Source: Tetramitus jugosus
Taxonomy: Eukaryota; Heterolobosea; Eutetramitea; Acrasida; Vahlkampfiidae
Assembly: GCA_937625935.1 (NCBI GenBank)
Contig: OW569383.1
Location: 248,001-312,000, forward strand
DNA length: 64,000 nt
Reading direction: 5' to 3'
Shown: positions 29,477 through 50,869 of the stretch, in pieces
Layout of the letters: each line of letters opens with the position of its first letter
Position numbering within the stretch: the first letter of the stretch is position 1
Made by a program: the position numbers and the translations under genes
The notes under the pieces: generated by a model
Databases searched by the model: none
What the model was told of the DNA's origin: nothing
What the model saw: only the letters and a program-made list of their open reading frames with translations

Positions 29477-29549
29477 CGCCCACCGAGGGGCTCGAACCCT
29501 CGACCACAAGGTTAAGAGCCTTGCGCTCTACCGACTGAGCTAGACGGGC
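29477..29549 (-). tRNA. tRNA-Lys (CTT anticodon)
   Basis: The minus strand folds as a complete cloverleaf: acceptor GCCCGTC paired with GGTGGGC (two G-T pairs), D arm TAGCTCAGTCGGTAGAGC, anticodon arm CAAGG-CTCTTAA-CCTTG with anticodon CTT, T arm with GGTTCGAGCC. Box A and box B promoter sequences are therefore intact. A TTTT terminator follows at 29470-29467 on the minus strand. No intron. A LINE tail begins 30 bp upstream of the 5' end and a reverse transcriptase gene ends 94 bp beyond the 3' end. Confidence 0.95.
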
Positions 29550-29579
29550 TATATATTCAATGTTAGAATAACCGCTCCC

Positions 29580-29707
29580 GAATCGGAGTAATTCGTAGTT
29601 CTGTGCTAGGAACTTGCCTGCGATAGGGTCAGAAGACGTAAGGTAGTTATTGAATTCGGTGCAGAGAATAAAGTTGCAACACTCGTTGTCTGGAAAAAAG
29701 AATCGGA
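29580..29707 (+). mobile_element. 3' tail of a LINE, inserted 30 bp upstream of tRNA-Lys
   Basis: The 8-bp sequence GAATCGGA occurs at 29580-29587 and again at 29700-29707, enclosing 112 bp that ends in a short A-run. The last 35 bp of this insert (about 29663-29697: AGAATAAAGTTGCAAC ... GTTGTCTGGAAAAA) align with the 3' end of the LINE fragment at 33309-33345 with roughly five of six bases identical. Only 3' untranslated sequence is left, so this is a severely 5'-truncated copy. It points away from the tRNA gene. The duplication length fits target-primed reverse transcription. Confidence 0.8.
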
Positions 29708-29711
29708 TATG

Positions 29712-29860
29712 TTAACAAAATTCATCAAAACTCGTCGATTGTCTATCTTTCCTTTCTTGAAAGGCTTCTTCGTGATCGTCTCCAGTGCAACGACTCTTCA
29801 CCTCAGTATTGAACTTTTTCTGATTGCTTTCTTGTTTGTTCTTTTCACTCTTTTTTGAGT
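29712..29860 (-). pseudogene. Degenerate partial duplicate of the eS30-like gene next door
   Basis: On the minus strand this stretch encodes KKFNTEVKSRCTG and, further on, a DEF-containing tail ending in a stop, both echoing the neighbouring gene (KKFNMEVKSHCSG and VDEFYYQEMF). At the DNA level 29732-29775 parallels 29977-30025 and about 29778-29830 parallels 30165-30217, so the copy lacks about 130 bp from its middle and the eS30 core at its front. No complete frame survives. Probably a decayed local duplication. Confidence 0.55.
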
Positions 29861-29947
29861 TACAACAGCATGGAAAGGAGAGGACTCTCTCCTTCACCTC
29901 TTCACCACGACAAAAACGAAACAACAATGACGCTATCCATCACAGTA

Positions 29948-30310
29948 TTATTCCACATCCCCAAACATTTCCTGATAATAAAACTCGTCAACTGTCTCTC
30001 TTTCCTTCTTGTGAGGCTTCTTGGTATTCGATGGTGCAGGCACCCCATGCACATAGTGTCTCGATTCATACCACAACCGCTTCTCTCTGATAAACAACTG
30101 TCTCTCCACATCTTTGTCTGTTAGACCAAATCTTTCTCTACTGGATGACAACTGATTCACATCATGAATCGCTCCACTGCAATGACTCTTCACTTCCATG
30201 TTGAACTTTTTTCTGAGCCGTTTTCTCTTGTGGCTAATCTCCTTTTCGTTCGTTCTGGGCACAAATGGTGTTTGACCCTTGTTCTTGCCCGCTCTTGCAA
30301 GCGATCCCAT
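29948..30310 (-). CDS. Ribosomal protein eS30-like N-terminus with unrelated C-terminal tail
   Basis: From the ATG at 30310 the protein (120 residues) starts MGSLARAGKNKGQTPFVP, which matches the start of eukaryotic/archaeal ribosomal protein eS30 (GSLARAGKV-GQTP-V) nearly residue for residue, and goes on with a basic stretch (HKRKRLRKKFNMEVKS) in the place of eS30's GRA-x-KR-x-YN-RRF. eS30 normally stops at about 60 residues; here about 75 further residues follow (RFGLTDKDVERQLFIREKRL ... GVPAPSNTKKPHKKE). The frame is open further upstream to 30562, but that part is not eS30-like. It could be a diverged ribosomal paralogue, an organellar form or a decaying copy. The true cytosolic eS30 may lie elsewhere. 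Confidence 0.55.
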   Translation of the reverse strand: MGSLARAGKNKGQTPFVPRTNEKEISHKRKRLRKKFNMEVKSHCSGAIHDVNQLSSSRERFGLTDKDVERQLFIREKRLWYESRHYVHGVPAPSNTKKPHKKERETVDEFYYQEMFGDVE

Positions 30311-30705
30311 GAGAATAATCATTGAGTAATTTTGTTTCTGTTGTTGTGTTCTGTTGTGGCAAGCTCTCTGTTTGAAAAACAAATGGTTCGGAACTTGTGA
30401 AGGCGAACATGGTTTCGTGAAAATGTGCATTTCTTGGGGGAAGGATGGAAGGACGAATGACTCCTTAAGTTTAGTTCTCTTGACCGTCTCTTCAAATTTC
30501 AACACTGTAATCACCCAAGAGATCAATAAACATAATGGTCCGTCGTTTACGAATTTATTCAATGATCTCGCAACAACAAACAGAAGATTCCATCATACGA
30601 ATTCATCCATTCCGAGCTGTGATAAAGTACTTGACACATAAGCGAAGGTGACGATTTCCAACAAAAGGTTCAAAAGTCTCAGGAAAGAACACTGATCTCA
30701 TTACT
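30311..30705. other. Divergent intergenic region
   Basis: About 395 bp between the eS30-like gene (minus) and the small membrane protein gene (plus). The minus frame continuing upstream of 30310 has no recognised motif. Nothing else is supported. Confidence 0.35.
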
Positions 30706-31017
30706 ATGGTAATTCGAGAAGCTTTTAGAGACGTGAGCTCTGATAGTTCATTTACTGCTTCTTCAAGCAACCTGCGACCTCGAATACTAGGTTCATCTGT
30801 GGGTGCACGAGACGAAAATGATGATGTCGGTGACACCATTCCAAAAATCTATCTATACAGTATAAGCTTTGCGGTCTTGCTATGCTGTCTCTTGTGTATT
30901 GGAGGAGCGATAGGAATCGCAATAGGAGTATACAAGGTGTTAGATAAACATAGGCCACCAAGGAATAACACGTTTACAGATGATATTGTTCATTCGTACA
31001 ATCCCGATCGTCGATAG
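30706..31017 (+). CDS. Small single-pass membrane protein, unknown
   Basis: A 103-residue frame with a clear membrane helix at about 48-75 (YLYSISFAVLLCCLLCIGGA then IGIAIGV), a Ser-rich N-terminal part and a basic/polar C-terminal tail (KHRPPRNNTF). No signal peptide precedes it, so the helix would act as signal anchor. No family is recognised. The frame has an ATG after an A-rich leader and convergent placement with an RCC1 gene, which supports it being real, but short length leaves doubt. Confidence 0.5.
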   Translation: MVIREAFRDVSSDSSFTASSSNLRPRILGSSVGARDENDDVGDTIPKIYLYSISFAVLLCCLLCIGGAIGIAIGVYKVLDKHRPPRNNTFTDDIVHSYNPDRR

Positions 31018-31090
31018 TGTCGATCTTTGTTCAAGAGAAAATGCTTCATAAAATATAGGTATCATGATAACCACTTCCTTTTCAACTTCT

Positions 31091-32389
31091 TCATGTTTGT
31101 TCGTGGTTGTTACAGCTTACAACAACATCGCACAAGAGCTGCTTCAGACGCAACGAATTGATGTTGAGCATAAGTCGCGAGCGTTTTCCAACTGCTAGAT
31201 GTATTATTGTTGTGAAGTATGAGCCTGTCATTTTCACAACCGTCTTGTCATCTCTATCTACTTCAGTGCCAAACTCCAATAGTTCTGGTGCAGTAGTATC
31301 CATACAACTTTCTGAAACCTTGTACAATTGCTTCTTAGAACGAGCGTACATGGTGATACTACCGGAACCAATTTGATTCACCAGACCCAAGGAATGCAAA
31401 GTAATAACCTTCTCTGGTTGTTTTGGGCCACCCATATGAGCATATCCACTAGCATCCAGAGCAATAAATTGATCGTAGGAACAACAAACATCAACTATAT
31501 GAGTATTCTGACGATGGAAGTATTCATGACGTACAAAATCCTCCTTCTTGGTAGCAACAAACAATTTGCCTTGATGATCCAAAAGAACTGAAAACTCTGC
31601 TCCAGCATCAATTTTCTTGCATTGGAAATTGATGGGTCTACTCTCCAGTGAATCAGGATGAACGTAGTGCATGAGTGAGGGATATAGATTCAAGGTGTCA
31701 TTTGGACTAAAAATACCTAACAAGAACACATTCAATGTGTACAGGTCTTGCATGAGCAAAAATCGACGGCCACGGCCGATTTTGCAGATTCGAAAAGTGT
31801 TGCTCGCATCAATGGGAACTCGCTTTGGTATATATCCCGTTGTTTGTACGTTGGAAGAATTGATTTGAAGCGCGACACTTGGCACCTGTGTTTCATCCCA
31901 AAACCAACGGCGAACATTACCACAGGTGAACGCCTGACCCGATGCACTCAAGAAGGCAGAGAACCATCCACCAACCTCCACACTCTCAATGTGCTCCTTC
32001 TCTATATCACCACGTATCAACGTTGGGTACTCTACCTTGCTACAATGACCCAATCCCAACTGCCCATCACGATTATCACCAAGTGCCCAACATCTCCCAC
32101 CGAAATCCAACAAAATGACATGCAACGCTCCACAGGCAACTTGTTTAATTTGTCTTTGACCTCTCATGGTCAACCACTGCTCGGCCTTGTGCTTCACAGA
32201 GTAACCATCTGTTTGAAAGTCCAAATCCGAAGGAGACACATCAGTGAACTCTCGTCCAAGGGGCTCCACTTTGCTCAGTTCTCCACTTGTCCAGAGTTCA
32301 CCATGAGACCCGTTACCACGGCCGAGAAGAACAGTCGTTCCAGGAATGATGTGTTGGGTCAATGTTTCTTGATCTATCAAGGTGTGCAT
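31091..32389 (-). CDS. RCC1-repeat (regulator of chromosome condensation-like) protein
   Basis: A 432-residue protein. RCC1 blade motifs are visible: IKQVACGALHVILLDFGGRC followed by WALGDNRDGQLGLGH, then VEVGGWFSAFLSASGQAFTC-GN, IDAGAEFSVLLDHQGKLFV and VDVCCSYDQFIALDASGYAHMGG. The full set of seven blades is partly degenerate, as is common in protist members. RCC1 domains are beta-propellers that act as Ran exchange factors or as protein/lipid binding platforms; the divergent blades make the latter more likely. It is one of three RCC1 genes in the window. Its start lies 58 bp from tRNA-Pro. Confidence 0.82.
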   Translation of the reverse strand: MHTLIDQETLTQHIIPGTTVLLGRGNGSHGELWTSGELSKVEPLGREFTDVSPSDLDFQTDGYSVKHKAEQWLTMRGQRQIKQVACGALHVILLDFGGRCWALGDNRDGQLGLGHCSKVEYPTLIRGDIEKEHIESVEVGGWFSAFLSASGQAFTCGNVRRWFWDETQVPSVALQINSSNVQTTGYIPKRVPIDASNTFRICKIGRGRRFLLMQDLYTLNVFLLGIFSPNDTLNLYPSLMHYVHPDSLESRPINFQCKKIDAGAEFSVLLDHQGKLFVATKKEDFVRHEYFHRQNTHIVDVCCSYDQFIALDASGYAHMGGPKQPEKVITLHSLGLVNQIGSGSITMYARSKKQLYKVSESCMDTTAPELLEFGTEVDRDDKTVVKMTGSYFTTIIHLAVGKRSRLMLNINSLRLKQLLCDVVVSCNNHEQT

Positions 32390-32446
32390 AATGGTTTTGT
32401 TGTTCGTCCTTTTCTCTTCCTTGAGAGGTTATGTAAAAGCAAAACA

Positions 32447-32519
32447 GGGGACAACGGAGAATCGAACTCCGGGCCTCTCGCACCCAAAGCGAGAATCATA
32501 CCACTAGACCATTGTCCCT
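32447..32519 (-). tRNA. tRNA-Pro (TGG anticodon)
   Basis: The minus strand folds into a full cloverleaf: acceptor GGGACAA paired with TTGTCCC, D arm TGGTCTAGTGGTATGATTC, anticodon arm CTCGC-TTTGGGT-GCGAG with anticodon TGG, T arm with GGAGTTCGATTCTCC. No intron. T-runs at 32446-32436 on the minus strand can terminate Pol III. A LINE fragment begins 28 bp upstream of the 5' end. Confidence 0.95.
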
Positions 32520-32547
32520 TCATATCGAATAAAAATTCTAAATAGTT

Positions 32548-33366
32548 GCAAAAAAAGAAACAAAAAAAACAAAAAAAAAAAATACCTCAAGAGCAGAAAA
32601 GAATTGATTAAAGAAAACGAGAAGTGGTGGTTGGAAGCAGTATTGATGGACTGGGATGAATGGAACATGTTCCTCAAGTGCCCGTTTGGATTGGATAGAA
32701 GAGAACTCTGGTTTTATCACCAGGTTAGGAGTGGTACATTGCACACGCTATCGGTAATGCGTGGACTTTATGGCAGTGTGGAAGATGCGAGATGCCCAAT
32801 CTGTAAGAAAGAAGATGACACTATAGTTCATCTGTTAGTTGAGTGTCCGCCCGCACAGGAGGCTAGGCGTAGAATTAGAGAGGTTTTTGCCTTACAGCTG
32901 AACAAATTGAACATACCTAAGGATATAAGAGTGGTATTGTGGTTCGACAGCTACCTATTTTGTAATGGAAATATAACGAAAAGAGCGGTAGATATGACGT
33001 CGAGTGATATTCTCGCAGGTATGATGGGGAAGGAAGGAGACACGAGGGAGGATATCACCACGGCACTACAAAAGTCGGGATGCAAGCAAAAAGAAGCTGT
33101 AAAGAGGGTAGCGAGTGTGATCAATAGTACTAAAAGAATATGCATCAAAGCACTCCACACGCTGTTCACCGCCTCAAAGGAACAGTGGAGAGAAACTATG
33201 CTCAGCACTACAAATGTTAGTCCGCACGGACTTGATGACGATAGGAAGTGATACAATACTCTGCACCGTACCGGTGCAGAGTTGAATCGCTTCTAAACTT
33301 GTTGTACAGAATAAAGTGGCAACACCAGGTTGTATGGAAAAAAAAAAAAAAAAAGCAAAAAAGAAA
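32548..33366 (+). mobile_element. 5'-truncated LINE, inserted 28 bp upstream of tRNA-Pro
   Basis: The insert runs from an A-rich junction at about 32561 to an A-run at 33340-33355. It is bracketed by GC-A7-GAAA at 32548-32560 and GC-A5-GAAA at 33356-33366, a target-site duplication blurred by slippage in the A-runs. It encodes the C-terminus of a LINE reverse transcriptase and then an untranslated tail containing an 11-bp perfect hairpin (33258-33282, ACTCTGCACCG with loop TAC). It is oriented away from tRNA-Pro. The rest of the element (5' end, endonuclease, most of the RT) is absent. Confidence 0.85.
32580..33251 (+). pseudogene. LINE reverse transcriptase C-terminal fragment with zf-RVT zinc finger
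   Basis: About 220 codons are open from the truncation point to a TGA at 33251. The fragment holds WNMFLKCPFGLDRRELWFYH, RSGTLHTLSVMRG, and the zinc finger CPICKKEDDTIVHLLVEC (C-x2-C-x8-H-x4-C), the finger that follows the RT domain in many non-LTR retrotransposons. Downstream come VVLWFDSYLFCNG and INSTKRICIKALHTLFTASK, both of which recur in the insertion at 50.3-50.7 kb. No start codon or RT catalytic core is present, so it is a non-functional remnant, although its frame is intact, which implies a fairly recent insertion. Confidence 0.85.
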
Positions 33367-33673
33367 ATAGGCTGGTGAAGTCTTGCATCAAACGGTTACA
33401 CAATGTATGGAGAGACTCAGTCGCGAAGAGATGTGAACAATAGGTTCTGAAGGACAACACGTCTCATTGTAGTGTATAGAACATCGAGCCAGTATGAGGA
33501 TTTGTTTTCGATCCTGAGCCCACTTTCTAGTTAGTCCACCAAGTTCAAGTTGGGGAGAACTTCTTTATCTCCGCCAATGTTCCAAGGACAATGACAGTTT
33601 TTTCTTTGCCTCTTTTTTCAGCAATCGACCTTTCATTACCAAAACAACTGTACTCTATCAACAACAACGAATC
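33367..33673. other. Intergenic region upstream of VIT/vWA gene
   Basis: About 307 bp between the LINE fragment and the VIT/vWA start codon. No gene is seen. It would contain the promoter of the downstream gene. Confidence 0.4.
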
Positions 33674-36600
33674 ATGTTTTCTGCACTGAGTAGATTAAGG
33701 GCATCTGACGCGTCCAAGGACGTTTCTGATTTCCAAGCCAATAACACCAATACCAATGAAGAAGTAGGAGAAAAGAAAATTTCTCCAACAGAACAACAGC
33801 CGACGTCTACGGGTGATAAACAACCGCGAGAAACTTCAAAAGACCAAGATGTCAAGAGTCAAAGGAATAATCTCCCTCAGATTACCTTTTCTGATCAAGC
33901 AAGCTCTCCATTGGAGGTCCAATCCCTCAATGTTCAAGTTCAAGTCAACTTGCCTATTGCTAAAATCACCTCTGTCTTCACCTTTGTCAATCCTCATGAT
34001 AGAACATTGGAGGGAGAGCTCGTTTTTCCATTGCCTGACGATGCTACCCTCATTGCTTATGCCATGAATGTTGATGGAAGCACCACTGAGCTCATTGATG
34101 CTGTTCCCGTGGAAAAAGAGAAGGCCAAGATGATTTTTGAGCAGGAAGTAAGAGAGAGAGGCAAGGGTGCTGCCATTGTAGAAATGGCAACTCATCAGAG
34201 CAACAGTTTTAGAACGAGAGTGTATCCATTGGTGCCACAAAAACCAAAGATCATTAGAGTGGTGTACACGATGCCTGTTTCTACGTCTGCCGTTGCTGAT
34301 GTGCCTTGTTCAGAGGTTATGATACCATTTGGATTGCCAGGAAAGAACAGCAATGTAAATGCTAATATCGAATGGTACAGTGAGAGTGATAATGAGCAAT
34401 CATTGGTGCTTTTGTTGAACTCTGACCGTAAGCTGACCGAATCTCGTCAGTCTACTGGCAAGTATATGACCGCAAAGATTGAAAACTCCCAATTGGATGA
34501 CTCCGTGGACAGTCTCACGGTCCGTTGTAGTCAAACACTCGAAGACAATTGTGTCATTATCGAAGACAATTTCTTCTGTGCTCGAATCCAAGTAGAAAAG
34601 CCAACGAGTGATAGCAGAATGAAGACTGACAAGATTCAAGTTCTTTGGGATTGCTCTTACAGTCGTAGTCGCAATCCTAAGATGATTGAGAAGGATTTGG
34701 AACTGCTGAGTGCTATCATGAAAGAATTGAAGCCAAAGCAAGTTGTTTTTACTCCATTCTGCAATTCAGTTCAGGAGAGAAATCGTGCTACGTTTGACAA
34801 TGTCCAATCATTGATGGAGCATGTAAAGAAGGTGGATTATGATGGAGCTACCAATCTATCATTGCTTGAGTCTGAGTTGGACGAGTCTGCTTCGTTCTGT
34901 GTTGTGTTTACTGACGGTATTCATACCATTGGTCAAGAAACAACACCTTACACAGCTTACTCAATACCATTGTACATTGTCTCAACTAGCATGTCCGCTA
35001 ATCACCAATTGCTTTCCCATGTGGCAACAAAGAGTGGCGGAATGTTGTTGAATGCCAACAAACTCCGTGTTGAACAAGTTGTAGAGCAAGTGGGAAAACC
35101 AGTGTTGTACTTTTTGGTTGCCGACTACGAGACAGAGGAGTTTGAAGAGGTGTGTCCAAATGAACCAACCATCCTGGATCCTAGTGGCCACTTCCACTTG
35201 TATGGAAAGGTGAAGCAGGGAGGACAAATTTCAATTGCCTTCCGATATGGTGGTGATATTATTGATACTAGAGTTTATGACATTGAACCATCTGCCACAA
35301 CAGCAGCAACAGCTCAGGAGAGATCTGACAGAATTATCCCCATGCTATGGGCTAAACAAAAGATGAACTCTCTCTCCGTGTTCCCTCACTTGTTTGAGAA
35401 AGAGTTGAAAGACTTGGGTCGAGAATGGTCTATTGTCACACCAACAACCTCTTTGATTGTGTTGGAGACATTGGATCAATATATTAAGCATCAAATCACG
35501 CCTCCAACAAGTTTGAAATCAGTCAGAGAATCCTACGAGAAATTTGTCCAACAGAAAGACAACGATGAGAAGAAGCGAGTGGCAAACAAGATTCAGAATG
35601 TACTAACAAAGTGGGAGGAAAGAAAACGCTGGCATAAAACAGAATTCAAGATTCCAGAGAAAAAGGAGAAAGAAGAAAGTTTCAAGAAGATGGCAGAATC
35701 TGCTCCTGCTCCAAGAGCATTCTTATCCATGGCTAGATCATCATCAGTCAGATGTGACGCTGAAGCAGCACCACGATTGTCGAGCTCTCTTTCATCCACC
35801 TCAAGTGGAAAGAAATGTAGGAAAAGCAAGAAAAACTCTGCTCGCTCTTCATCGCCAGCTCTTGATGATGATTTCATGGACGAACAAGAGGAAGAACCTT
35901 CCAATGCAGTCACTGCATCCATCAATATTCAAGAATGGAAATCTGATGCAGCATACATGGCTACTATTAGCAAGGCAAGCAATCCTTATGAGGCCTACCT
36001 CCAGGAGAGAAAGAACCTGAGCACCTCGCCAGCATTCTTCTTAGATGTCGCAGACTTTTGGCTCACAAAGCTCAAGAATTTAAATGATGGTGTTGCCATC
36101 TTGACCAACATTCTTGAACTGGAACTAGAGAATGCCCAATTATTCAGAATTGTGGGCTATCGTCTCGATCAGGCAAAACAGTACGAATTGGCTGAAATGG
36201 TGTTTGAGAAGGTGAAGAAGATGAATCCTGAGGAGCCACAGAGTTATCGTGACCTTGCATTGGTTAAAGAAAAGTTGGGCAAGCTCGAAGAAGCTGTCGA
36301 ATTGTTCAACAAGGTCATCACTGGCAAGTGGGACATGAGATTTGACGAGATTGAACAGACTGCTGCCATCGAATTGAATCACTGTTTACTAAAGAACCCT
36401 GACTTGAAGCCATGTCACGAAGGCTTCCGATACAAGATGGATCTCGACTTGAGAATCAGTATGGCCTGGGATACCAACGACATTGACATTGATCTTCATG
36501 TTCATGAAGATTGCGCTGGAGGTGAACACTGTTACTTTGCCTATCCAAGAACAAAGATTGGAGGCTATGTAAGCAGAGATTTCCGTCAAGGATACGGTCC

Positions 36601-36811
36601 AGAGGAATACATGCTCAGAAAAGCTCCTCACGGTGAATTCAAAGTCACCACAAACTACTATGCAAATCATCAGCAATCATTGACTGGAGGAACAACTGTG
36701 CTGTGCACATTCTTCACCAATTACATGAGACCTGAAGAAAAGAGTGAAATTGTAACGATTCGATTGCAAACCAATCAATCTAATATCCCTGTTTGCACTA
36801 TTAATGTTTAG
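33674..36811 (+). CDS. VIT / von Willebrand A / TPR / DUF2135 multidomain protein
   Basis: A 1045-residue protein. Residues about 75-205 are a VIT (vault/inter-alpha-trypsin) domain: FVNPHDRTLEGELVFPLPDD, VEKEKAKMIFEQEVRERGKG, SNSFRTRVYPLVP. Residues about 315-470 form a vWA domain with a recognisable metal site: D-x-S-x-S in WDCSYSRS, the Thr in DGATNLSLL and the Asp in FTDG. Residues about 680-740 are Ser/Lys-rich linker. Residues about 820-890 hold two TPR-like repeats (AKQYELAEMVFEKVKKMNPE; GKLEEAVELFNKVI). Residues about 920-1040 match DUF2135 (AWDTNDIDIDLHVHE, YVSRDFRQGYGPEEYML, GEFKVTTNYYANH). No signal peptide, so cytosolic. The same combination occurs in bacterial and protist proteins; function unknown. 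Confidence 0.9.
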   Translation: MFSALSRLRASDASKDVSDFQANNTNTNEEVGEKKISPTEQQPTSTGDKQPRETSKDQDVKSQRNNLPQITFSDQASSPLEVQSLNVQVQVNLPIAKITSVFTFVNPHDRTLEGELVFPLPDDATLIAYAMNVDGSTTELIDAVPVEKEKAKMIFEQEVRERGKGAAIVEMATHQSNSFRTRVYPLVPQKPKIIRVVYTMPVSTSAVADVPCSEVMIPFGLPGKNSNVNANIEWYSESDNEQSLVLLLNSDRKLTESRQSTGKYMTAKIENSQLDDSVDSLTVRCSQTLEDNCVIIEDNFFCARIQVEKPTSDSRMKTDKIQVLWDCSYSRSRNPKMIEKDLELLSAIMKELKPKQVVFTPFCNSVQERNRATFDNVQSLMEHVKKVDYDGATNLSLLESELDESASFCVVFTDGIHTIGQETTPYTAYSIPLYIVSTSMSANHQLLSHVATKSGGMLLNANKLRVEQVVEQVGKPVLYFLVADYETEEFEEVCPNEPTILDPSGHFHLYGKVKQGGQISIAFRYGGDIIDTRVYDIEPSATTAATAQERSDRIIPMLWAKQKMNSLSVFPHLFEKELKDLGREWSIVTPTTSLIVLETLDQYIKHQITPPTSLKSVRESYEKFVQQKDNDEKKRVANKIQNVLTKWEERKRWHKTEFKIPEKKEKEESFKKMAESAPAPRAFLSMARSSSVRCDAEAAPRLSSSLSSTSSGKKCRKSKKNSARSSSPALDDDFMDEQEEEPSNAVTASINIQEWKSDAAYMATISKASNPYEAYLQERKNLSTSPAFFLDVADFWLTKLKNLNDGVAILTNILELELENAQLFRIVGYRLDQAKQYELAEMVFEKVKKMNPEEPQSYRDLALVKEKLGKLEEAVELFNKVITGKWDMRFDEIEQTAAIELNHCLLKNPDLKPCHEGFRYKMDLDLRISMAWDTNDIDIDLHVHEDCAGGEHCYFAYPRTKIGGYVSRDFRQGYGPEEYMLRKAPHGEFKVTTNYYANHQQSLTGGTTVLCTFFTNYMRPEEKSEIVTIRLQTNQSNIPVCTINV

Positions 36812-36907
36812 AATAAACCATATCCTATACTATAGACTAGTGCACACTTTCAACTCCAAGAGAAATGATCACCGTTGTATCCAAAAAATATACAAATAGA
36901 AAAAAGT

Positions 36908-36997
36908 TGCTTCTGGTGGGGTTCGAACCCACGATCCCTGGCTAACTCACTATGTCTACATTATAAGACCAGTGCTTTACCACTAAGCTACAGAAGC
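36908..36997 (-). tRNA. tRNA-Ile (TAT anticodon) with a short intron
   Basis: The minus strand gives acceptor GCTTCTG paired with CAGAAGC, D arm TAGCTTAGTGGTAAAGC, T arm GTGGGTTCGAACCCCAC. The anticodon stem CTGGT pairs with GCCAG only if about 17-18 nt (around ATGTAGACATAGTGAGTT) are removed one base after the anticodon, the standard position of nuclear tRNA introns. The loop then reads CTTATAA, anticodon TAT, which decodes AUA. A T6 run follows at 36905-36900 on the minus strand as terminator. Confidence 0.9.
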
Positions 36998-37376
36998 TGT
37001 TATATTTATAGAAATATCAACAGGGGACATTTCTCCGACCCTCGTTCACTCTCCTTGCTGGATCTTCGTCGCGGGTGCCAAATAATTTGTCAATCGCTCG
37101 ATCGTGGTTGTTGTATTACGAGCGTATCATTGGGTTTGTTCAGTAAAATAAGATTCAATCAGTCATCATCGTGTTTGGTTGCTTGTGAATTGTTTTGTGT
37201 GAAAAAATATTTGGTTTGGGAATGACTTTGATGTCTGAAGCATATTTCTCCGGAAAACGTCCAGTTTGATTTACAGAAGTTTAAAATGTGCTCAAAAACG
37301 TGAACACACTAACAGACATGTTCGAACACATTACTAGGTTTATTATCGTTTTGAAAAATTTGTTAGGGGAGCGTAC
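36998..37376. other. Intergenic region
   Basis: About 379 bp between tRNA-Ile and the 3' end of the ABCG gene. Unlike the other Pol III genes here, I cannot find a target-site duplication or a convincing LINE tail. No gene is supported. Confidence 0.4.
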
Positions 37377-41166: not shown

Positions 41167-41331
41167 ATAATACGCAATCACCAACGTATCTACCCATGTT
41201 CCTATTGTGTTGTATGTATCTTCTACATATTTTGTCAATCAAGTTCAATACAGGTCGTGGAAGGTCTGACAAGTTCAACGCTGTTGTTGATAAAGATTCT
41301 ATGATTAAATAAAAAAATAAGTGCACACAAC

Positions 41332-42171: not shown

Positions 42172-42314
42172 AGTTCATTTACAATTAAAGCAGAAGATGT
42201 CAAGTGGTTTCCCGGATATATCTGTCGCTTCTGTATGCTCACCCAATGCACGCTTTGCTCTTTCATCAGCGATGAATTCTTTAGCTTTCTTTTTCGACAC
42301 ATGTTCGTTGTTGT

Positions 42315-42941: not shown

Positions 42942-43003
42942 TTCAAGTCTGTAGTTTGTTTTAACGAGTACGACAAAAAATCAATTAGTTGTATATAATG
43001 GAA

Positions 43004-43279
43004 TCACATCCGTAGCACAGTTCCACTAGCTACTACACATGCTATTCTTGTACGATGTTCCACGCTCACAGGGAAATCCTGTTCATGAAAACCATTGCTC
43101 GTATACACTTCTACAGATATATCGTTCCATCTAGTAAAGTTCTTCTTTGGGATATTGATCATTACATCTGTAGTGTCTGGTGAGTTTGCGTGATTGGTTG
43201 CCCAGAAGATACATCTCTGTGATGGCTGTGGTATATCGCTAGTAATGAACCATAAGGGTGATTGAATTGATATTGATTC
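43004..43279 (-). pseudogene. Coding-like fragment, no start codon
   Basis: On the minus strand 91 codons are open between stops. The translation (PLWFITSDIPQPSQRCIFWA, NIPKKNFTRWNDISVEVYTS, HRTRIACVVASGTVLRM) has globular-protein composition, but there is no ATG near its start and no splice partner that I can defend upstream. It may be the last exon of a lost gene or a fragment of a secreted protein, given its secreted neighbours. No family recognised. Confidence 0.4.
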
Positions 43280-43412
43280 TCAACAACTACGATCGGGCAA
43301 CCAAATATTCTTCTGTTCAGGGCGGTAATGTCATCGAGAGCAGCACAGACACAGGTTGAGAGAAGATAGACATGGTCTTGTTTTCAAAAGAGAAACAAAA
43401 AAGAAAAAAAAT

Positions 43413-44315
43413 TTATGGATACATAATGTCCCAATGGTTTCCTTCCTTGGCATAGATGCTTCCAGAGGATGCCTTCCACATCTCAGCTCCATCACCTCTT
43501 CTGCCAGCGTGAGCAAAGCTAGAAGTGATATAGTTGTTAATGCAAGAGTTCAATGAGATATCGAGCTTGTAACCATTGCTGTGGCTGTAAGCACCACCAG
43601 CATGACCAATCTCAGTTCCTCCAGTGATGGTAATTGGGCATCCAGAGGCTCTCTTGAGTGTCAAAATCTTGTCAATCGTTCCACTGTTGACTTGATCCAA
43701 AGAGGTGCATCTACGGTTGTTCTTATCGTGGCATCCACCAGAGGAGGAAACTGCGATACCGGCAGAACGAACCTTGTTCAAAGCATCACCATTGGACATT
43801 TTGTAACCAGAAGCAGAGTCACTCATGGAGAACAAGCCCTTGATGTTTTGGACGTGACCAGCAGCCTCAGATGCCTTACCCAAACCGTCCAACACCTTAT
43901 TCCACTTAATCTTCTTCCAGAATGGCTTATCAGTCATGGATTGAGGTCTCTTGTAACCCAACACATTGGCAACCTTCTCAGCCTTGTTCACATAGTTCAT
44001 CAAGTCCTCGAAAGAGAACTCTGAGTCACTGTAGAAATCAGGTTGAGTGATGCAAACAGCAGGACACATCATACCTCTTGGACAATTGTTCAAGCATCTG
44101 ATTTCGGAATCGGAGAGAACGAGAGCGGTGTCTTGATACTTTGAACCACCGTGAGCACGGAGACTACTTCTGCGTCTGACGACATCAGACAGAGCATAAC
44201 GGGTACCACCATTGCTGCCATTGTCAGCACGGAGACCACTTCTGCGAGAAGCAGAGACAACAACAGCAAAGTAAACAAACAATGCGACTAGAACAAGGAG
44301 AGACTTGATAGACAT
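43413..44315 (-). CDS. Secreted M15-like (D-Ala-D-Ala carboxypeptidase-type) protein
   Basis: From the ATG at 44315 the protein is 300 residues. A signal peptide (SLLVLVALFVYFAVVVSA) is followed by two similar Arg/Ser-rich blocks (RRSGLRADNGSN and RRSSLRAHGGSK), then a Cys pair region (CLNNCPRGMMCPAVC). The C-terminal half resembles the M15 peptidase fold: GCPITITGGTEIGHAGGAYS, then SHSNGYKLDIS, which fits the S-x-H-x-x-G-x-x-x-D zinc motif with a shifted His, and the terminal GNHWDI, equivalent to the W-x-H/H-W zinc ligand. Such enzymes cleave bacterial peptidoglycan; a secreted or phagosomal digestive role is inferred for a bacterivore. A frame extends 33 codons upstream of 44315 but would bury the signal peptide. 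Confidence 0.75.
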   Translation of the reverse strand: MSIKSLLVLVALFVYFAVVVSASRRSGLRADNGSNGGTRYALSDVVRRRSSLRAHGGSKYQDTALVLSDSEIRCLNNCPRGMMCPAVCITQPDFYSDSEFSFEDLMNYVNKAEKVANVLGYKRPQSMTDKPFWKKIKWNKVLDGLGKASEAAGHVQNIKGLFSMSDSASGYKMSNGDALNKVRSAGIAVSSSGGCHDKNNRRCTSLDQVNSGTIDKILTLKRASGCPITITGGTEIGHAGGAYSHSNGYKLDISLNSCINNYITSSFAHAGRRGDGAEMWKASSGSIYAKEGNHWDIMYP

Positions 44316-44569
44316 GATGATTTGTGTGTATATGTACGATGTTGATAAAAAGGATGATGAGGAGAAGAAGATGTTTTGTTGGGGGAGGCAAACCGAAAAA
44401 AATGTCGTCGTCACCCAGCCTGAGGCCCCTGCTGCGATTGTAAAGTGTTTCGGTCAAAAATAAAATTGGGGTTCACATCCATCACGAGCCCAATTACTTC
44501 TTCTTTCCCGCCAGAACTGCTCGTGGTAAAAAGTTCAACAAGGCGCGGGAACAAAAACAAGCAAAAAAT
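44316..44569. promoter_or_regulatory. Divergent promoter region
   Basis: This 254-bp gap separates the start codons of the M15-like gene (minus) and an RCC1 gene (plus), so both promoters must lie here. No defined element is recognised. Confidence 0.4.
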
Positions 44570-45724
44570 ATGGCAGGGGCCATTGTAGCGACATGGGGCA
44601 AGAGTGTGCATGAAACAGAGGGTACACCAATCAAGAAAATTGCAGTGCCCGTCAAGGTCAAACTTCCCAGAACTGAAACTTCAAGAGTCGTGTCAGTGTC
44701 CTGTGGTGGTCAATTTTCAGCTCTGTTGACAGAGTCTGGTCATGTTTACACGTTTGGATCAAGTAAGGATGGTAGATTGGGATACAAGGTACAAGAAGCA
44801 ACTCAAGCCTTTCCTAAGAGAATCGAATGCTTGAACAACGTGTCACAGCTCAGTTGCGGTACCTGGCATGGTTTGTGTCTCACATCGGATCACCAAGTGT
44901 ACATCTGGGGTAGGACAACAGTGCAGTACGATGGTCCTACAATTGTACGATCGCTCTCGGATCTGGCTCATAGCGACCCGGTCATCAAAGTGGGTGCTGG
45001 TTATGCCTACAGTGCCGCACTTACCAGATCAGGTAGATTGTTTCTGTGGGGAAAGAATGGCCAGGGGAAGATGGGATTCGGTCCCGATGTTGCAGCCGTA
45101 GAAGAGCCGAGATACCTCTCGGATTTTGTTGTTCGAGACTTTAGTCTGGGATATGAATCGACGGTGTTCTGTACTGTTGATGGCCGAGTGTTCTCCATGG
45201 GCTCCAACGATTACTATCAGTTGGGTATAGGAAAGAATAAGAGCGCAAGAGATAGGCCTCATCTCGTACATTGTGCAGACTTTCAGTCTGACCCAGTTAT
45301 TCAAGTCTCGACATCTGTTGGTAGTGCCCATAACTGTCACTCTGGAGCTGTGACACATTCTGGGGCCTTGTACATGTGGGGTTCTGGCTACAAATTCAAA
45401 TTAGGAACAAATACTTTGGATGATCAACCTACTCCCATACGAATTACGTTCTTTGACAAACTTGGATTGCGAGTGCAAAAGCTCGTGTGTGGAGGCATAC
45501 ACAATCAAGTACTTACAATAGATCATCAGATTTACTCGTGGGGTTGTGGTAGTGACGGTAGACTCGGACATCCAGAATCTGACGGTCATCGCTATCTATA
45601 CAAGGAAGAAACACCTCGGCGTGTACAGTTCTCTGCACCGAGAAAGGTGTTAGATCTCGCTTCGAGCTACTATCATGTACTGGCGATTCTGGACGAGTCA
45701 CAGACAACTGAAAACCACAAGTGA
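44570..45724 (+). CDS. RCC1-repeat protein
   Basis: A 384-residue protein consisting almost entirely of RCC1 blades: VVSVSCGGQFSALLTESGHV followed by YTFGSSKDGRLGYK; QLSCGTWHGLCLTSDHQVYI-WG; KVGAGYAYSAALTRSGRLFL-WGKNGQGKMG; VFSMGSNDYYQLGIG; SGALYMWGSGYKFKLGTNTL; LVCGGIHNQVLTIDHQIYSW-GCGSDGRLGH; LASSYYHVLAILDES. Seven blades complete a beta-propeller, the length of RCC1 itself (about 420). No other domain. Exchange-factor activity cannot be inferred. It lies divergent from the M15-like gene and convergent with a membrane protein gene. Confidence 0.88.
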   Translation: MAGAIVATWGKSVHETEGTPIKKIAVPVKVKLPRTETSRVVSVSCGGQFSALLTESGHVYTFGSSKDGRLGYKVQEATQAFPKRIECLNNVSQLSCGTWHGLCLTSDHQVYIWGRTTVQYDGPTIVRSLSDLAHSDPVIKVGAGYAYSAALTRSGRLFLWGKNGQGKMGFGPDVAAVEEPRYLSDFVVRDFSLGYESTVFCTVDGRVFSMGSNDYYQLGIGKNKSARDRPHLVHCADFQSDPVIQVSTSVGSAHNCHSGAVTHSGALYMWGSGYKFKLGTNTLDDQPTPIRITFFDKLGLRVQKLVCGGIHNQVLTIDHQIYSWGCGSDGRLGHPESDGHRYLYKEETPRRVQFSAPRKVLDLASSYYHVLAILDESQTTENHK

Positions 45725-45783
45725 AACAACTCACAAGCACAAGCTCACTCATTTTCAGTTCTCTGATCATTTATTTGTTTCAT

Positions 45784-46404
45784 TTACAACTGCTGTGTTA
45801 GCTTTTCATTCTTTCGCACAAAGGAAAACGTGTCGTACATGTTCTTTGTCGCATGAATAATCGATTGACCATAGGCCAAGCAACCCATTGAAGCCACCAT
45901 TTCAATACCATATGTCCTACCACAGCAATAAAACATTGACACCGAGGCACAACACAATCCAAACATGCTAAAATTCAATGACCAACAGCAAATGCTAGGA
46001 ATAATACCTAATCACTTTGGGATCAAATGACAAACAAAAGAGCTAAACAATGTTACGATAGAGGTCACTAGAAACAATAGAGCAAATAAGCTCTTGTGCA
46101 AGGTAATGCATCCTTCAGTGTCACCTCTCATCCAACATGAGTTCTGATACACGTAATGCGCAAAGAGACAACACGTGCACACTGTGTGGACCAAATTCAG
46201 CCATAGTACAGTTCTAATGTTACTCGTCGAAAAAACAAAGCTCGAAAGCTTTTGAAGGAGTTTGCTCTGGAATGTTTGGGGTTTCTTTTTGTAATCTTGG
46301 TTGACCGCACCTGAAAAAAAGTTTCGGTCCTTTGAAAAAAGGGCTTCTCTTTCATTGTCGAACTGGTTGTTCATATTTTCTTCGTTTGATGTTTCGTCCA
46401 ACAT
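45784..46404 (-). CDS. Small four-helix membrane protein with an in-frame TGA
   Basis: From the ATG at 46404 the frame reads 130 codons, meets TGA (46014-46012), and continues in the same frame for 76 codons to 45784. Upstream of the stop are an acidic N-terminus and two membrane helices (TVLWLNLVHTVCTCCLFAHY; LFALLFLVTSIVTLFSSFVC). Downstream, LGIIPSICCWSLNFSMFGLC and EMVASMGCLAYGQSII make two more, and the polar end (FVRKNEKL) makes a sensible tail. The stop context (CHLIPK-stop-LGIIPS) would suit Trp. So the gene is either truncated by a G-to-A change, read through, or mis-sequenced at one base. Tetraspan-like topology; family unknown. Confidence 0.6.
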
Positions 46405-46749
46405 TTTTGAATCTCCAGGGTGAAAGGATCTGGCAGTTGTGAGGTTGTTTTGTTTCTTTTGATGTTTTCAAAGGGTGCGGTTTTCTGGATGGATGTCAAG
46501 AGAAGTCCGATTCGCATGCCGAACATGTCTCGGAGAATATTTTGGCTAAGAAAAGCTGGAAGACACAACGATCCTTGATTTTATGGACTAGTCCTTTGGA
46601 TATCGATCTCAACTATCATTCTATTTTTCAGAGTTCATCTCTATTGCTCTCTTTATCTAATCAGCAGAACAAGTGACGGAGTTTTGTGAGGCATCTCCTT
46701 TTCACATTGCTCACTGAAGTTTTGGCCTTCTTCTCTGTCACCACCGTTG
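46405..46749. other. Intergenic region
   Basis: About 345 bp upstream of the membrane protein gene and left of the LINE-like insertion. No gene supported; the membrane protein's promoter is expected at the left end. Confidence 0.35.
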
Positions 46750-46767
46750 AACGTCAATTCTGGCCTT
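46750..46767. repeat. Target-site duplication, left copy
   Basis: AACGTCAATTCTGGCCTT, identical over 18 bp to 48138-48155. It adjoins the poly(A) end of the insertion (read as T-run on the plus strand). The flanks beyond the two copies differ, as expected for a duplication made at insertion. Confidence 0.93.
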
Positions 46768-46914
46768 TTTTTTTTTTTTTTTTTTTTTTTTAATACAACA
46801 AATGGTGCGTGAGCACCACGTTGCGGAACTTTTATTTTTCTTTTGTTTGAGAGCAGGCTTGCCTGCTCTCAATTGTCTAACATGGTGTGGTGCTTGCCCC
46901 GTGGAGTGGCAGGC

Positions 46915-48126
46915 CTACGCAACAGGATTCATTCTCTTCTTGGAATGTTGTTTTGATCCCTTCTTCAGGGATTCGTTGCGAGGGCCTCCACTACCGACTG
47001 GAGCACCACTGGTGAGGTCAGATGGCTCCGTAGTCCTAGCCAGTTGGTAGGACCTACGGAGAGCACCTGACTTGATACTGGCCAACCTGGCCGGGATCTT
47101 GTTAGCAGCAGTGTCACCAACGGTGACACGTGCTGATCGTTTCTTGTTCTCGTTGAGTTGGGGACTCTGTAACTCGCAGTCGGGGTTACAGAGGTCCAAC
47201 TCAACTGGATCCTCTTGGGTGGTTGTGCTTCTTGCACGGTCCACCATGATTGCTCGGGCAGCAATCTCCTTCTTGGCTCTCTTGAACACCTCCGAGGATG
47301 GCTCTGTTACGAGCATCCTCATCCATGGTGTTGTTGGTTGGCTCTTGGATGACCGTAGTTGGAGTGGCGGGGTTGGACTCCGGCAAGATCGACTCCCAGT
47401 CGTCGGTCGTAGACGGAGTCGAAGGTTCGAATTCGGAGATTCGGTCCGGCGTCCTTGGAGACGGGGACGCGAAGGGAATCCGGTTGACGGAAGCCATTTC
47501 TTTTAACACACTGACTTGGTGGCGCAGGTCGTCCACCACAGCCAGGAGTTCTTGATACATCTTAGTCAGCCTCTTGCTGACAGCCTTGACAGGGTCACGT
47601 GGGCGTGGAAGGAAGCGTTTTGCTTCCACCTCCACTGGCATGGCTTGAACGTTCCGGCATACGTTTCAGACTCCATCACAACAAAGGCAGTGTTGTGCTT
47701 CTTGAGCACATTCTTGACCTTTGTTGTGCCGAGCATGGCCTTGATGTCGTCCTCCGTCTTACCTTTGACTCCGTGGAGGACGACCTTCTTGGCACAATCA
47801 ACGTTGTGCTTGAGTGCTGCCTTGCAGCCACTCATCTTCTTGTTGCGGTTGAAGGATTCAACAAATGGGTAAATGTTGTCATCAACAACAGTTACCCACG
47901 CAACAAACCTCTTGGGGCCCTTCTTGATGACTTGGACCCTGGTGAGCAAGTCACCAAAATCCAAGCCAATCTTCTTGGCCAAGGCAGCTTTTGGAGAGTC
48001 ATCGCACTTTCCAGTGATGATGACCTCCTTGCTGCTTGGAGCAGTTCCTCTTGGTGCTGTGGTCCACACAGCATAGCGTGGATTCTCATACTCACGAACA
48101 ACAGGGGTGTGTGTTCGTTTTTTCAT
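46915..48126 (-). pseudogene. LINE ORF1-like protein with two compensating frameshifts
   Basis: Three overlapping minus-strand frames form one protein. Frame A (48126 to about 47640) encodes about 165 residues: a basic start, then alpha/beta sequence including RFVAWVTVVDDNIYPFVESF and VVLHGVKGKTEDDIKAML, reminiscent of RRM-like ORF1 domains. Frame B (about 47641-47322) continues with a coiled-coil-like helix (KRLTKMYQELLAVVDDLRHQ) and a Ser/Pro/Thr linker. Frame C (47322-46915) is basic with LDLCNPDC. Frame A and frame C are the same register, so a single indel near 47640 and an opposite one near 47320 explain the pattern. ORF1 proteins bind element RNA. Family identification is by architecture, not by a named motif, hence moderate. 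Confidence 0.55.
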
Positions 48127-48137
48127 CGGCGTTTTTT

Positions 48138-48155
48138 AACGTCAATTCTGGCCTT
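48138..48155. repeat. Target-site duplication, right copy
   Basis: Second copy of the 18-bp duplication. It ends 32 bp before the first base of the 5S rRNA gene and adjoins the 5' end of the inserted element. Confidence 0.93.
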
Positions 48156-48187
48156 CGGCGCGAAATACTGTGAAAAACAATATTAAC

Positions 48188-48306
48188 GTCTACGTTCATA
48201 CAATGGTGGAACCACCTCTTCCCATTTCGAATAGAGAAGTTAAGCACCATCTGGCTGAGTTAGTATTGAGATAGGAGACTACTCGAGAACCCTCAGTAAT
48301 GTAGGC
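48188..48306 (+). rRNA. 5S ribosomal RNA
   Basis: The 119-nt sequence has 5S structure: helix I GTCTAC at the start pairs with GTAGGC at the end; loop A/helix II region TTCATACAATGGTGGAACCA; the conserved CCCATTTCGAATAGAGAAG-TTAAGCACCATC segment of helix III/loop C; the internal promoter (A box AGTTAAGCACCA-type, C box TTAGTATTGAGATAGGAGAC); and the helix V arm. TTTTT at 48307-48311 terminates Pol III. It is a lone copy in this window, not part of a visible tandem array. Confidence 0.92.
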
Positions 48307-48361
48307 TTTTTGATCTGACACAAACAACGAAAAGAAGTCCGACACTACACAACAAAAGGCA

Positions 48362-49815
48362 ATGCCCGTTGGAACGAAACTGGAAAGAAAGTTGAATGTC
48401 TATGGTGCTGGTCTCTCACAAGATGATCAAACTGGATTCAATCGCTCGTACTATTCGGACAAGAAGGAAGAGGATCTCTATCTGACACATGGTGGTGCAA
48501 TCGACGATGATGAGACCACTGGAGATGTTGTCCATTCATTTGCGCAAGTGGTGCAATATGGTTCAATCGGAGAGGAGTTTGCATCTGAGAAGGAACTGTT
48601 TGGATCTGGGGAATATGTCACACATGTCTCCTGTGGCGAACATCATTCTCTGTTTGTGACCAATCATAGACGCGTGTTTTCATGTGGTGACAATGTTTAT
48701 GGTGCTTGTGCATTGCCTGAGGAAATTTCCACTGTGAAGCAAATAACCTTGATACCACAATTGTCCAATTGTAATATTGTTGAAACAAGGTGTGGATGTT
48801 GCCATTCATTCTTCATCAGTGAAGGGTACCAGTCTGTGTTTGCCACAGGGTTCAACGCGAATGGAGAATGTGGATTATCAATGAGGACAGCCAAGATTTA
48901 TGGTGTGGAGAGATTCGATGGTCTCAACGGCACACAGATAAAGTATGTTGCGTCTGGAGCTTATCACACAGTGTTTGTCACTGTTGACAATTGTGTGTAT
49001 ACTTCTGGGTTTTGTGCATTTGGTTCTTTGGGTCAGGGGAGCCGGGACGGGAAGAGTTTCACACCTCGCAGCGTAAATCATCCTGATCTCCGTGGATTAA
49101 AGTTGATCAAGAGCGTTGAGTGTGGGCAATGGTATTCCATCGTGATTGCAGAGGATGGATCAGCATACTCTTGGGGTTATAATAATCATGGTCAATGTGG
49201 ACTTAACTCTTCTTTGCAATCTCATGTAGTGAATCCAACTTTGGTGACTGGCATTCCGTCGGATGAGAAAATTGCTGATGCTAGATGTGGGAAAAGTTTC
49301 ACATTGTTTCGAACAATGTCTAACAATTTTTATGGTTGTGGTGAGAACTCACACGGTGCTCTGGGGCTTCCCAGTGTCTATATTCAATCGATTGTAACTC
49401 AAATTCCTTTGTCGATTGGAACTGTGCTCGATTACAGATGTGGAGTGAATTTTACAGTGTTTACAACTACAAAGGGAAAAACCTATATTTGCGGATACAA
49501 AGGGTTAGTACTTTATCCATTCATTCAGTTTTTTTCTGTTCAATGTATTGCTGTGAACTCACACTTTTATTATTGTCTGTTAGTATGTTATGTCAACTCA
49601 AGGATGATACTAGTTCAGTTGCTGAAGTGCAAATGCACTGGGTTTCACATAGCGCTTCCTACAACACTGGACATCTTATGGCCTGTTCTCCACTCGGTGA
49701 TCACATGCTGCTGTACAGTGTACCAACAAATTATTACCCCTTTCCAAGCAAACTCTTCACCGCTCAGCAAAAGGGACTCTTGTGTGATACAATTCTTGTT
49801 TTGGCGTTCGAGTAG
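48362..49815 (+). CDS. RCC1-repeat protein, two exons (48362-49503, 49584-49815)
   Basis: Exon 1 carries RCC1 blades: VTHVSCGEHHSLFVTNHRRV with FSCGDNVYGACALP; VETRCGCCHSFFISEGYQSV with FATGFNANGECGLS; YVASGAYHTVFVTVDNCVYT; VECGQWYSIVIAEDGSAYSW with GYNNHGQCGL; DARCGKSFTLFRTMSNNFYG; YRCGVNFTVFTTTKGKTYIC. The frame then degrades. An 80-nt intron, 49504-49583 (GTTAGT donor, TGTTAG acceptor), joins exon 1 in frame to QLKDDTSSVAEVQMHWVSHS ... CDTILVLAFE and a stop at 49815, giving 457 residues. Without splicing the frame would run to 49834 through T-rich sequence. Third RCC1 gene here; it starts 55 bp after the 5S gene. Function beyond a propeller scaffold is unknown. Confidence 0.82.
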
Positions 49816-50144
49816 TGAACCCTCAGACACCTGACATATGTTGCCATAGTGTGTTGGTATTTTCATTAACCACAACTACATTCAAATGAACTGCCATCAA
49901 TGTCCAAATGGAAATCATGGGCCATAGAACTGTAAATCTCATTTTCAAAGCCCCATCTGCTGTAAATGACGAGCATGAGAATTCTGCTGAGCAAAAAAAG
50001 GATGATACTCCTCAAGAGAATTCCACACTTGTGCAATTGGGTACATCCTAACTATCGACTCCTGTGTTGAGCTCTGTTGATTCTCCCGACGAGGCTTGCC
50101 GACATCTAAGTACCAACTGCACCATTGTAACCATTGCCTGTCTT
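49816..50144. other. Intergenic region
   Basis: About 330 bp between the RCC1 gene and the older LINE remnant. No gene is seen. Part of it may be still more decayed LINE sequence but I cannot align it. Confidence 0.35.
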
Positions 50145-50262
50145 TCTCTGCTCATTCATTGTTCGTTTCCATTGCATCACTGCTGGTTATCAAACCAAAT
50201 ATCGACACATAGCTACTTATGCTGACACATAGAGCTTTTTGCGACATCCTTTGAGCAAATTA
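50145..50262 (-). mobile_element. Older LINE fragment behind the tRNA-Ala insertion
   Basis: This stretch is a diverged copy of 50590-50715: the minus strand encodes VDIWFDNQQ-stop-CNG where the younger copy has VDIWFDNQQWCNG, and about four fifths of bases match over the best 38 bp. Its element 5' side ends at the left copy of the target duplication of the younger insertion, so before that insertion it sat about 46 bp from tRNA-Ala. It is the remnant of an earlier hit at the same site. Its 3' end is not recognisable. Confidence 0.65.
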
Positions 50263-50750
50263 TTCAGCCGCTTCTTGTTTTTGAATACAACCAATGGTTG
50301 CGCAGTTTATTCGTTGTTGTTTCTCTTCTACATGATGTAGCTGTTTATGACGGCAGAATGCTGTCACTGTTGCTTTGCTTGTTGCTGGTGCTCGTAGAGC
50401 ATCAGCAACCAGCCATCTCTTTGGAGCTTGTGAAGAGGCGAAGCATCTCCTCAATACATCTCCTCTTAGTATTATCCACGAACTGTTTCGCTTTCTTCTT
50501 GGTGATATCCTTCTTGATTCCATTTTTTGAGCCCTTTGGCAACTTGTTTCGAAGCTTGCGTTTCCACACCTAGAAAACCTAACATGTTGTTTCCCAGTCT
50601 TCCTTTGCCGTTGCACCACTGTTGGTTGTCAAACCATATGTCCACACATTGTGACTTGTGCAGTCCCATTGAACTCAGTTTCGCAGCAATTTCCTTTGTG
50701 AGCAAAATTCTGGCCATCCTTACAGTGAAGAACTATTGATTTTCAGCCGC
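50263..50750 (-). mobile_element. 5'-truncated LINE 3' end, inserted 46 bp upstream of tRNA-Ala
   Basis: TTCAGCCGC occurs at 50263-50271 and at 50742-50750, bracketing a 470-bp minus-strand insert that ends in GGTTGTATTCAAAAACAAG (50291-50273). The insert encodes, in two frames separated by a frameshift near 50520, CVDIWFDNQQWCNG and VDNTKRRCIEEMLRLFTSSK. Both match the RT C-terminus of the tRNA-Pro copy (VVLWFDSYLFCNG; INSTKRICIKALHTLFTASK), so this is the same LINE family, cut even closer to its 3' end. The ATG near its 5' end (50717) is accidental to the truncation. It points away from tRNA-Ala. Confidence 0.82.
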
Positions 50751-50796
50751 GTCTGGGACCCGCGGCCAAAATATCAGTAAAATGAATCAATGTATA

Positions 50797-50869
50797 GGGG
50801 TCATGGCTCAGTTGGTAGAGCGCGTGCTTTGCATGCATGAGGTCCAGGGTTCGATTCCCTGTGGCTCCA
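50797..50869 (+). tRNA. tRNA-Ala (TGC anticodon)
   Basis: Full cloverleaf: acceptor GGGGTCA paired with TGGCTCC (with G-T pairs) and discriminator A, D arm TGGCTCAGTTGGTAGAGC, anticodon arm CGTGC-TTTGCAT-GCATG with anticodon TGC, T arm CAGGGTTCGATTCCCTG. No intron. TTTT follows at 50872-50875. The LRR-protein start codon lies 41 bp downstream. Confidence 0.95.

Follow-up and report, generated by a model that had tools for sequence, protein, structure and literature searches.

Among the retrotransposons described next to genes transcribed by RNA polymerase III (Pol III), the closest to those considered here are the TRE5 elements of Dictyostelium. TRE5-A inserts with its 5' end toward the gene, its 5' junction lying 47+/-3 bp from tRNA genes and 35-42 bp from 5S genes (PMC5391098), and a form carrying only the first open reading frame (ORF1) is mobilised in trans, the ORF1 protein binding subunits of TFIIIB (PMC5391098, PMC5911963). 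P. pallidum NLTR-B and D. purpureum NLTR-A, elements without long terminal repeats (LTR) and with RNase H, also lie upstream of tRNA genes, NLTR-A at 2-6 bp, and the same report gives TRE-like elements as not found in Physarum, Acanthamoeba or Protostelium (PMC5006619). In yeast, it is the Pol III machinery that brings Ty1 and Ty3 to sites upstream of Pol III genes (PMC5911963). Here, I show that in a stretch of 64,000 nucleotides (the window, C40:248001-312000) from Tetramitus jugosus, a free-living soil amoeboflagellate of the Heterolobosea (Discoba), four Pol III genes have an insert of the LINE (long interspersed nuclear element) type just upstream with its 5' end toward the gene, and that the same arrangement recurs through the genome. 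To my knowledge, LINE targeting of Pol III genes is known only from dictyostelids; no description of Pol III- or 5S-targeted retrotransposons in Heterolobosea (Naegleria, Tetramitus) was found in the open-access literature, subscription papers being outside the scope of that survey.

It is highly probable that LINEs with an APE endonuclease, together with ORF1-only satellites borrowing their ORF2, insert on the upstream side of Pol III genes and a fixed distance away from them, 5' end toward the gene, most likely by docking on the Pol III initiation complex. The genome searched amounts to 26,348,746 bases (26.35 Mb) in 56 contigs, with a GC content near 41%; the published assembly of strain CCAP 1588/3C has 26.3 Mb, 41% GC per chromosome and a mitochondrial genome of 49.46 kb (PMC11106597). 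Seen from the elements, the 30 best-scoring genome copies of the ORF1 of the window's 5S insert, which represent one satellite family, were picked regardless of their neighbours; in 21 of them ORF1 is preceded at 39-72 bp by a tRNA or 5S gene, always divergent. The remaining nine (L065, L067, L070, L072, L074, L083, L085, L090, L091) have the A-tail of another element in front, and in five of them a Pol III gene is found past that element: tRNA genes 1.39-1.41 kb away in L065, L070 and L074, a listed tRNA gene 1,777 bp away in L091, and the gene in front of L090 described below.

Seen from the genes, the same bias appears. The tRNA list held 63 entries, of which 53 were used after dropping the 10 on C54/C56, a 49,460-bp organelle contig present twice; the 5S entries were the best-ranked 47 of 772 and 40 of 138 first-look candidates. 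When the 53 tRNA and 47 5S entries are set against 150 of the 156 genome matches to the ORF1 of the window's 5S insert, 16 upstream-opposite pairs lie within 1.5 kb and one in another arrangement, the latter being later seen 85 bp upstream of a tRNA-Gln gene. In the complete tRNA-Gly, -Ser, -Gln and -Asp sets (20, 15, 19 and 29 entries), chosen since they had already been met beside elements, 16 of 83 genes have a divergent ORF1 copy within 120 bp upstream (seven known from those encounters, nine new), vs 0.04 expected and none in the other three arrangements, which places the pattern beyond chance, as the original prediction had it; from 120 to 2500 bp, the count is seven upstream-divergent copies vs four. 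The element tails point the same way. Most of them (48 distinct) hold a potential short hairpin, GCAAC-loop-GTTGTAT, directly before the poly(A) or A-tail, common to LINEs and satellites; at 61 gene-centred loci (56 fetched and five within the window), such hairpin-tails number 21 upstream-antisense (18 loci), none upstream-sense, two downstream-antisense (in L048 and L051, where the tail turns out to be upstream of a second Pol III gene) and one downstream-sense, all lower bounds, for the pattern misses tails with GCAAT. A duplication of 9 bp or more whose distal side bears an A-tail occurs at 16 of the 61 genes; each of three other upstream windows gives one, as does the downstream side, the background being higher at a threshold of 8 bp (17 vs 5, 5, 2 and 3). 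As far as this genome-wide check was run, the side, the orientation and the distance all depart strongly from randomness, and nothing in it refutes the prediction.

Elements and genes being closely linked, one might take each Pol III gene and its element for a single mobile or duplicated unit. That is hardly conceivable: the targets comprise 5S genes as well as ten or more tRNA species, with differing spacers, many copies of the same genes have no element, and the duplications sit between gene and element, so that the gene is excluded from the inserted unit.

The insertions fall into two registers according to tail type, about one DNA turn apart, and this is a new finding. In a set drawn from both gene-centred and element-centred loci, with a single duplication counted for each gene, 37 of 88 distinct genes are preceded by an insertion that shows both a duplication and a GTTGT tail, a proportion not to be read as an occupancy rate. 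Where the tail is of the GG type (GTTGTATGG), the near edge of the duplication lies 28, 28, 28, 28 and 30 bp from tRNA genes (n=5, median -28) and 23-26 bp from 5S genes (n=7, median -25); for non-GG tails, it lies at a median of 40 bp from tRNA genes (n=20, range 31-62) and at 33-37 bp from 5S genes (n=5, median -35). At tRNA genes the registers are thereby offset by 12 bp (Mann-Whitney p 0.0007) and at 5S genes by 10 bp (p 0.005), and in both tail classes the 5S insertions are 3-5 bp nearer to the gene than the tRNA ones. The 5' junctions have medians of 44 bp (tRNA; range 42-46 bp) and 37 bp (5S; range 32-40 bp) in the GG class, and of 55 and 51 bp, respectively, in the non-GG class. These figures bear on the idea that insertion is random and that selection in a compact genome then purges all copies except those upstream of Pol III genes: the genome is gene-dense, to judge from the ORFs of the window, and Pol III upstream regions are presumably harmless, yet such a process would not yield a single orientation, a precision of 2-4 bp and two registers by tail type, and it is very improbable.

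Aligned on the nick, base preference reaches at most 0.7 bit at 21 non-GG sites and 0.5 bit at 11 GG sites, with no strong consensus; small site classes go up to 1.1 bits, where the noise is large. Since no strong preference is found at the nick, distance from the gene, not sequence, seems to set the place of insertion. Somewhat on balance, I favour the view that two sister LINE lineages share the Pol III initiation complex as their docking site but bind it in geometries that differ by one helical turn, each keeping its own register whether the target is a tRNA or a 5S gene, and each family of ORF1-only satellites following the register of its ORF2 donor, so that the flank of the gene would be a stratified record with the newest insertion nearest to it.

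Several observations weigh against targeting by docking at a fixed distance. For four of the 30 ORF1 copies (L067, L072, L083, L085), the 1.5 kb examined contains no Pol III gene, and at 1.5-6 kb the orientation contrast is lost (7 upstream-opposite pairs vs 6 others), as would be expected if other genes intervened. A single downstream-sense hairpin-tail lies at a tRNA gene (L023:1752); ORF1-bearing copies are scarce at the listed 5S genes (1 of 47 within 120 bp); and neither of the two U6 genes listed (L061, L062) has a hairpin-tail within 1.5 kb. Among the registers, one insertion stands out at -62 (L010) and two non-GG insertions at tRNA genes lie at -31. Finally, many 5S genes (loci L031-L060) have in common, by eye, a stretch from about -40 to -20 that resembles AAAA-CG-GGAAATAG, so that site and distance are partly confounded there. 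Together with the weak base preference two positions from the nick (the 0.7 bit of the 21 non-GG sites), this last point would suit an endonuclease guided by the DNA itself, through a sequence or promoter motif that happens to stand at a constant spacing from Pol III genes, with no protein tether; such an enzyme is nonetheless unlikely, as the nick-aligned information is low and the upstream flanks of tRNA genes differ, yet the distances agree within a few bases.

Docking on the Pol III complex thus being preferred, the elements themselves call for description. They are APE-type non-LTR (LINE) retrotransposons, with target-site duplications, an A-rich 3' end and 5' truncation (truncated copies of 114-800 bp). 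In autonomous copies, ORF1 is followed by a reverse transcriptase (RT) 2.1-3.4 kb on (17 pairs; the LINE-type set consists of the best 35 of 73 RT entries, assigned by judgement). The autonomous copy on C18 (L006, L093) encodes an ORF1 of 435 aa, an APE domain, an RT and a C-terminal CCHC motif, with two stops in ORF2; in Pfam its APE domain scores 26.8 bits with PF03372, against a cut-off of 24.5 (5.2e-6), and its RT 97.5 bits with RVT_1 (1.1e-27). The 793-aa piece of this ORF2 from RT to C-terminus gave RVT_1 and a weak zf-RVT in Pfam, and no RNase H family match, RNase H being a feature of NLTR-A and NLTR-B. The satellites carry ORF1 only: family A, of about 1.38 kb, has an ORF1 of 414 aa and ends in the hairpin and A-tail, and a second family, of about 1.3 kb, has the GG tail (L060, L065, L070, L074). 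The ORF1 frame of family A is intact in 14 of 30 copies, at 95-99.6% identity and with a pN/pS of 0.20 among the 14, which suggests that the protein is needed. In Pfam, no family is hit by ORF1 over cut-off, and no named relative is among the 8 and 7 related proteins found. An ORF1 relative from another source, P0005, has a start that looks like translated tRNA sequence, which I take as a hint of the same arrangement in another genome. PDB 8vd6 was considered as a relative and judged spurious, the match being isolated and local (4.8e-10), with no stretch passing alone.

The insertions are also stacked. When the nearest insertion is removed in silico, another element appears past the far duplication in L019, L020, L022 and L039, and neighbouring hits less than 5 kb apart lie on the same strand in 56 pairs vs 3, pairs that are not independent, as they include the 17 ORF1-RT pairs of one element each. 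From both it follows that the newest insertion is the one nearest to the gene. No uninterrupted empty-site paralogue was found in the loci examined. L090 lies behind a non-GG tail, with ORF1 and RT placed in front by coordinates; a Pol III gene was predicted in front of that autonomous copy, and the 196 bases there (L094) hold a tRNA-like gene on the opposite strand (L094:19-106), for which ARAGORN gives a four-base anticodon and no amino acid, and which probably has an intron. A 16-bp duplication at -40 to -55 in L094 recurs after the tail in L090, which is the non-GG register; the span of about 5.3 kb was read at its ends, its middle being placed by coordinates.

In the window, which holds four tRNA genes and one 5S gene (ARAGORN, Rfam; Table 1), reading the sequence by eye bears out the side, orientation and gaps claimed for the four inserts. 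End repeats had been claimed for all of them. Those of 8 bp (GAATCGGA, 29580-29587 and 29700-29707) at tRNA-Lys, of 18 bp (48138-48155 and 46750-46767, -33 to -50) at 5S and of 9 bp (TTCAGCCGC, 50742-50750 and 50263-50271, -47 to -55) at tRNA-Ala are present, whereas the Pro repeat (GCAAAAAA(A)GAAA, 32548-32560 and 33355-33366) is imperfect, its 12-13 bp differing by one A. Being short or imperfect, the repeats at Lys and Pro escaped the automatic duplication scans and were read by eye, as was the fit of all four to the registers: near edges at -31 (Lys) and -30 (Pro) with GG tails, -33 (5S) and -47 (Ala) for the others. The hairpin-tail motif has four matches in the window, one per insert, vs a mean of 0.035 per shuffled window (200 shuffles), and tRNA-Ile has none within 1.5 kb upstream by pattern match. 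The ORF2 C-terminus of the Pro insert matches Pfam zf-RVT at 8.1e-5, under the curated cut-off, and the C18 ORF2 at 43% (2e-28); it also matches that of the Ala insert (3.6e-6), in agreement with the claim that two inserts encode the same RT C-terminal peptide. The claim of one LINE family does not hold, for there are several related families: Lys and Pro have the GG tail, the 5S insert is ORF1-only and the Ala insert is another ORF2-derived copy.

Table 1. Pol III genes of the window, their inserts and the features of the inserts
Feature	Position	Strand	Evidence
tRNA-Lys gene (target)	29477..29549	-	ARAGORN, Rfam
Lys insert, 5'-truncated LINE copy, 112 bp (29588-29699), GG tail	29580..29707	+	sequence
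Hairpin-tail of Lys insert	29676-29699	+	pattern match
tRNA-Pro gene (target)	32447..32518	-	ARAGORN, Rfam
Pro insert, 5'-truncated LINE copy, GG tail, imperfect 12-13 bp repeats	32548..33366	+	sequence
ORF2 C-terminus with CCHC (zf-RVT-like) in Pro insert	32646..33251	+	Pfam, ORF2 comparison
Hairpin-tail of Pro insert	33319-33354	+	pattern match
tRNA-Ile gene, internal control without such an insertion	36908..36997	-	ARAGORN, pattern match
5S insert, ORF1-only satellite, 1370 bp (46768-48137), 5' end toward 5S gene	46750..48155	-	sequence, duplication scan
Hairpin-tail of 5S insert	46766-46824	-	pattern match
ORF1 of 5S insert, 186 aa	47566..48126	-	ORF list, genome search
5S rRNA gene (target)	48188..48307	+	Rfam 100.4 bits
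Ala insert, 5'-truncated LINE copy, 470 bp (50272-50741), non-GG tail, ORF2 C-terminal remnant	50263..50750	-	sequence, ORF2 comparison
Hairpin-tail of Ala insert	50278-50301	-	pattern match
tRNA-Ala gene (target)	50797..50869	+	ARAGORN, Rfam

Apart from these inserts, an ORF at 28151-29383 of the window encodes a different reverse transcriptase (RVT_1 1.5e-18, profile 60-205), which from the look of its motif I assume to be possibly DIRS- or Gypsy-like; it ends 94 bp from the 3' end of tRNA-Lys, and about a dozen partial RT entries elsewhere in the genome resemble it. As to the 5S genes, they are dispersed over the genome and do not form one array (138 first-look candidates, the best 40 scored), and the motif like AAAA-CG-GGAAATAG upstream of many of them is perhaps a promoter element.

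Position, orientation, duplications, the 3' hairpin, the ORF1 plus APE-RT architecture, satellites, stacking and two registers 10-12 bp apart, all directly observed, would fit together if the ribonucleoprotein of the element were tethered via ORF1 to the Pol III initiation complex, most likely to TFIIIB as the TRE5-A precedent suggests. The APE domain would then nick at a set distance from the gene, be it a tRNA gene or one of the dispersed 5S genes, and target-primed reverse transcription would carry out the insertion. Recognition of the 3' hairpin by ORF2 may allow the satellites to be copied in trans, and the two registers may be two docking geometries on the same DNA face. The interpretation originally offered is supported, with the amendments of several families, two registers, many ORF1-only satellites and a heterolobosean host; the contact with TFIIIB/TFIIIC that it includes is presumed.

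The likeness to Dictyostelium TRE5 seen at the outset extends, now in Heterolobosea, to side, orientation and distance. As in TRE5, the elements precede both tRNA and 5S genes and turn their 5' end toward the gene, nearer at 5S than at tRNA, and have an APE-RT-zinc finger ORF2 and a novel ORF1; ORF1-only copies with a common 3' hairpin recall TRE5-A.2, the ORF1-only derivative, and may likewise be mobilised in trans. Against the TRE5 distance of about 44-54 bp upstream in opposite orientation, the GG class at tRNA genes stands at 42-46 bp and the non-GG class at a median of 55 bp, all upstream insertions being antisense; the GG class thus has the distances of TRE5-A, and the non-GG class lies one turn further out (median 5' junctions -55 at tRNA, -51 at 5S). 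Unlike TRE5, the host belongs to Discoba, not Amoebozoa, and there is an extra outer register and a common 3' hairpin (GCAAC..GTTGTAT). The likeness drawn here is one of position and architecture. Like NLTR-A and NLTR-B, these are non-LTR elements upstream of tRNA genes, whereas Ty1 and Ty3 are LTR elements with an integrase, target-primed reverse transcription being presumed here. In HAL1-type or SINE/LINE partnerships (SINE, short interspersed nuclear element), non-autonomous copies share the 3' end of a LINE, with its 3' stem-loop; the satellites described here differ in keeping an ORF1 under purifying selection.

To sum up, two registers at 5S and tRNA genes in one genome serve as a natural ruler for the position at which the element is held by the Pol III complex, and they make it directly testable whether the distance originates from ORF1 or ORF2. 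That a heterolobosean shows the same side, the same orientation and also, in one class, the same distance points either to the repeated evolution of one solution or to an ancient trait.

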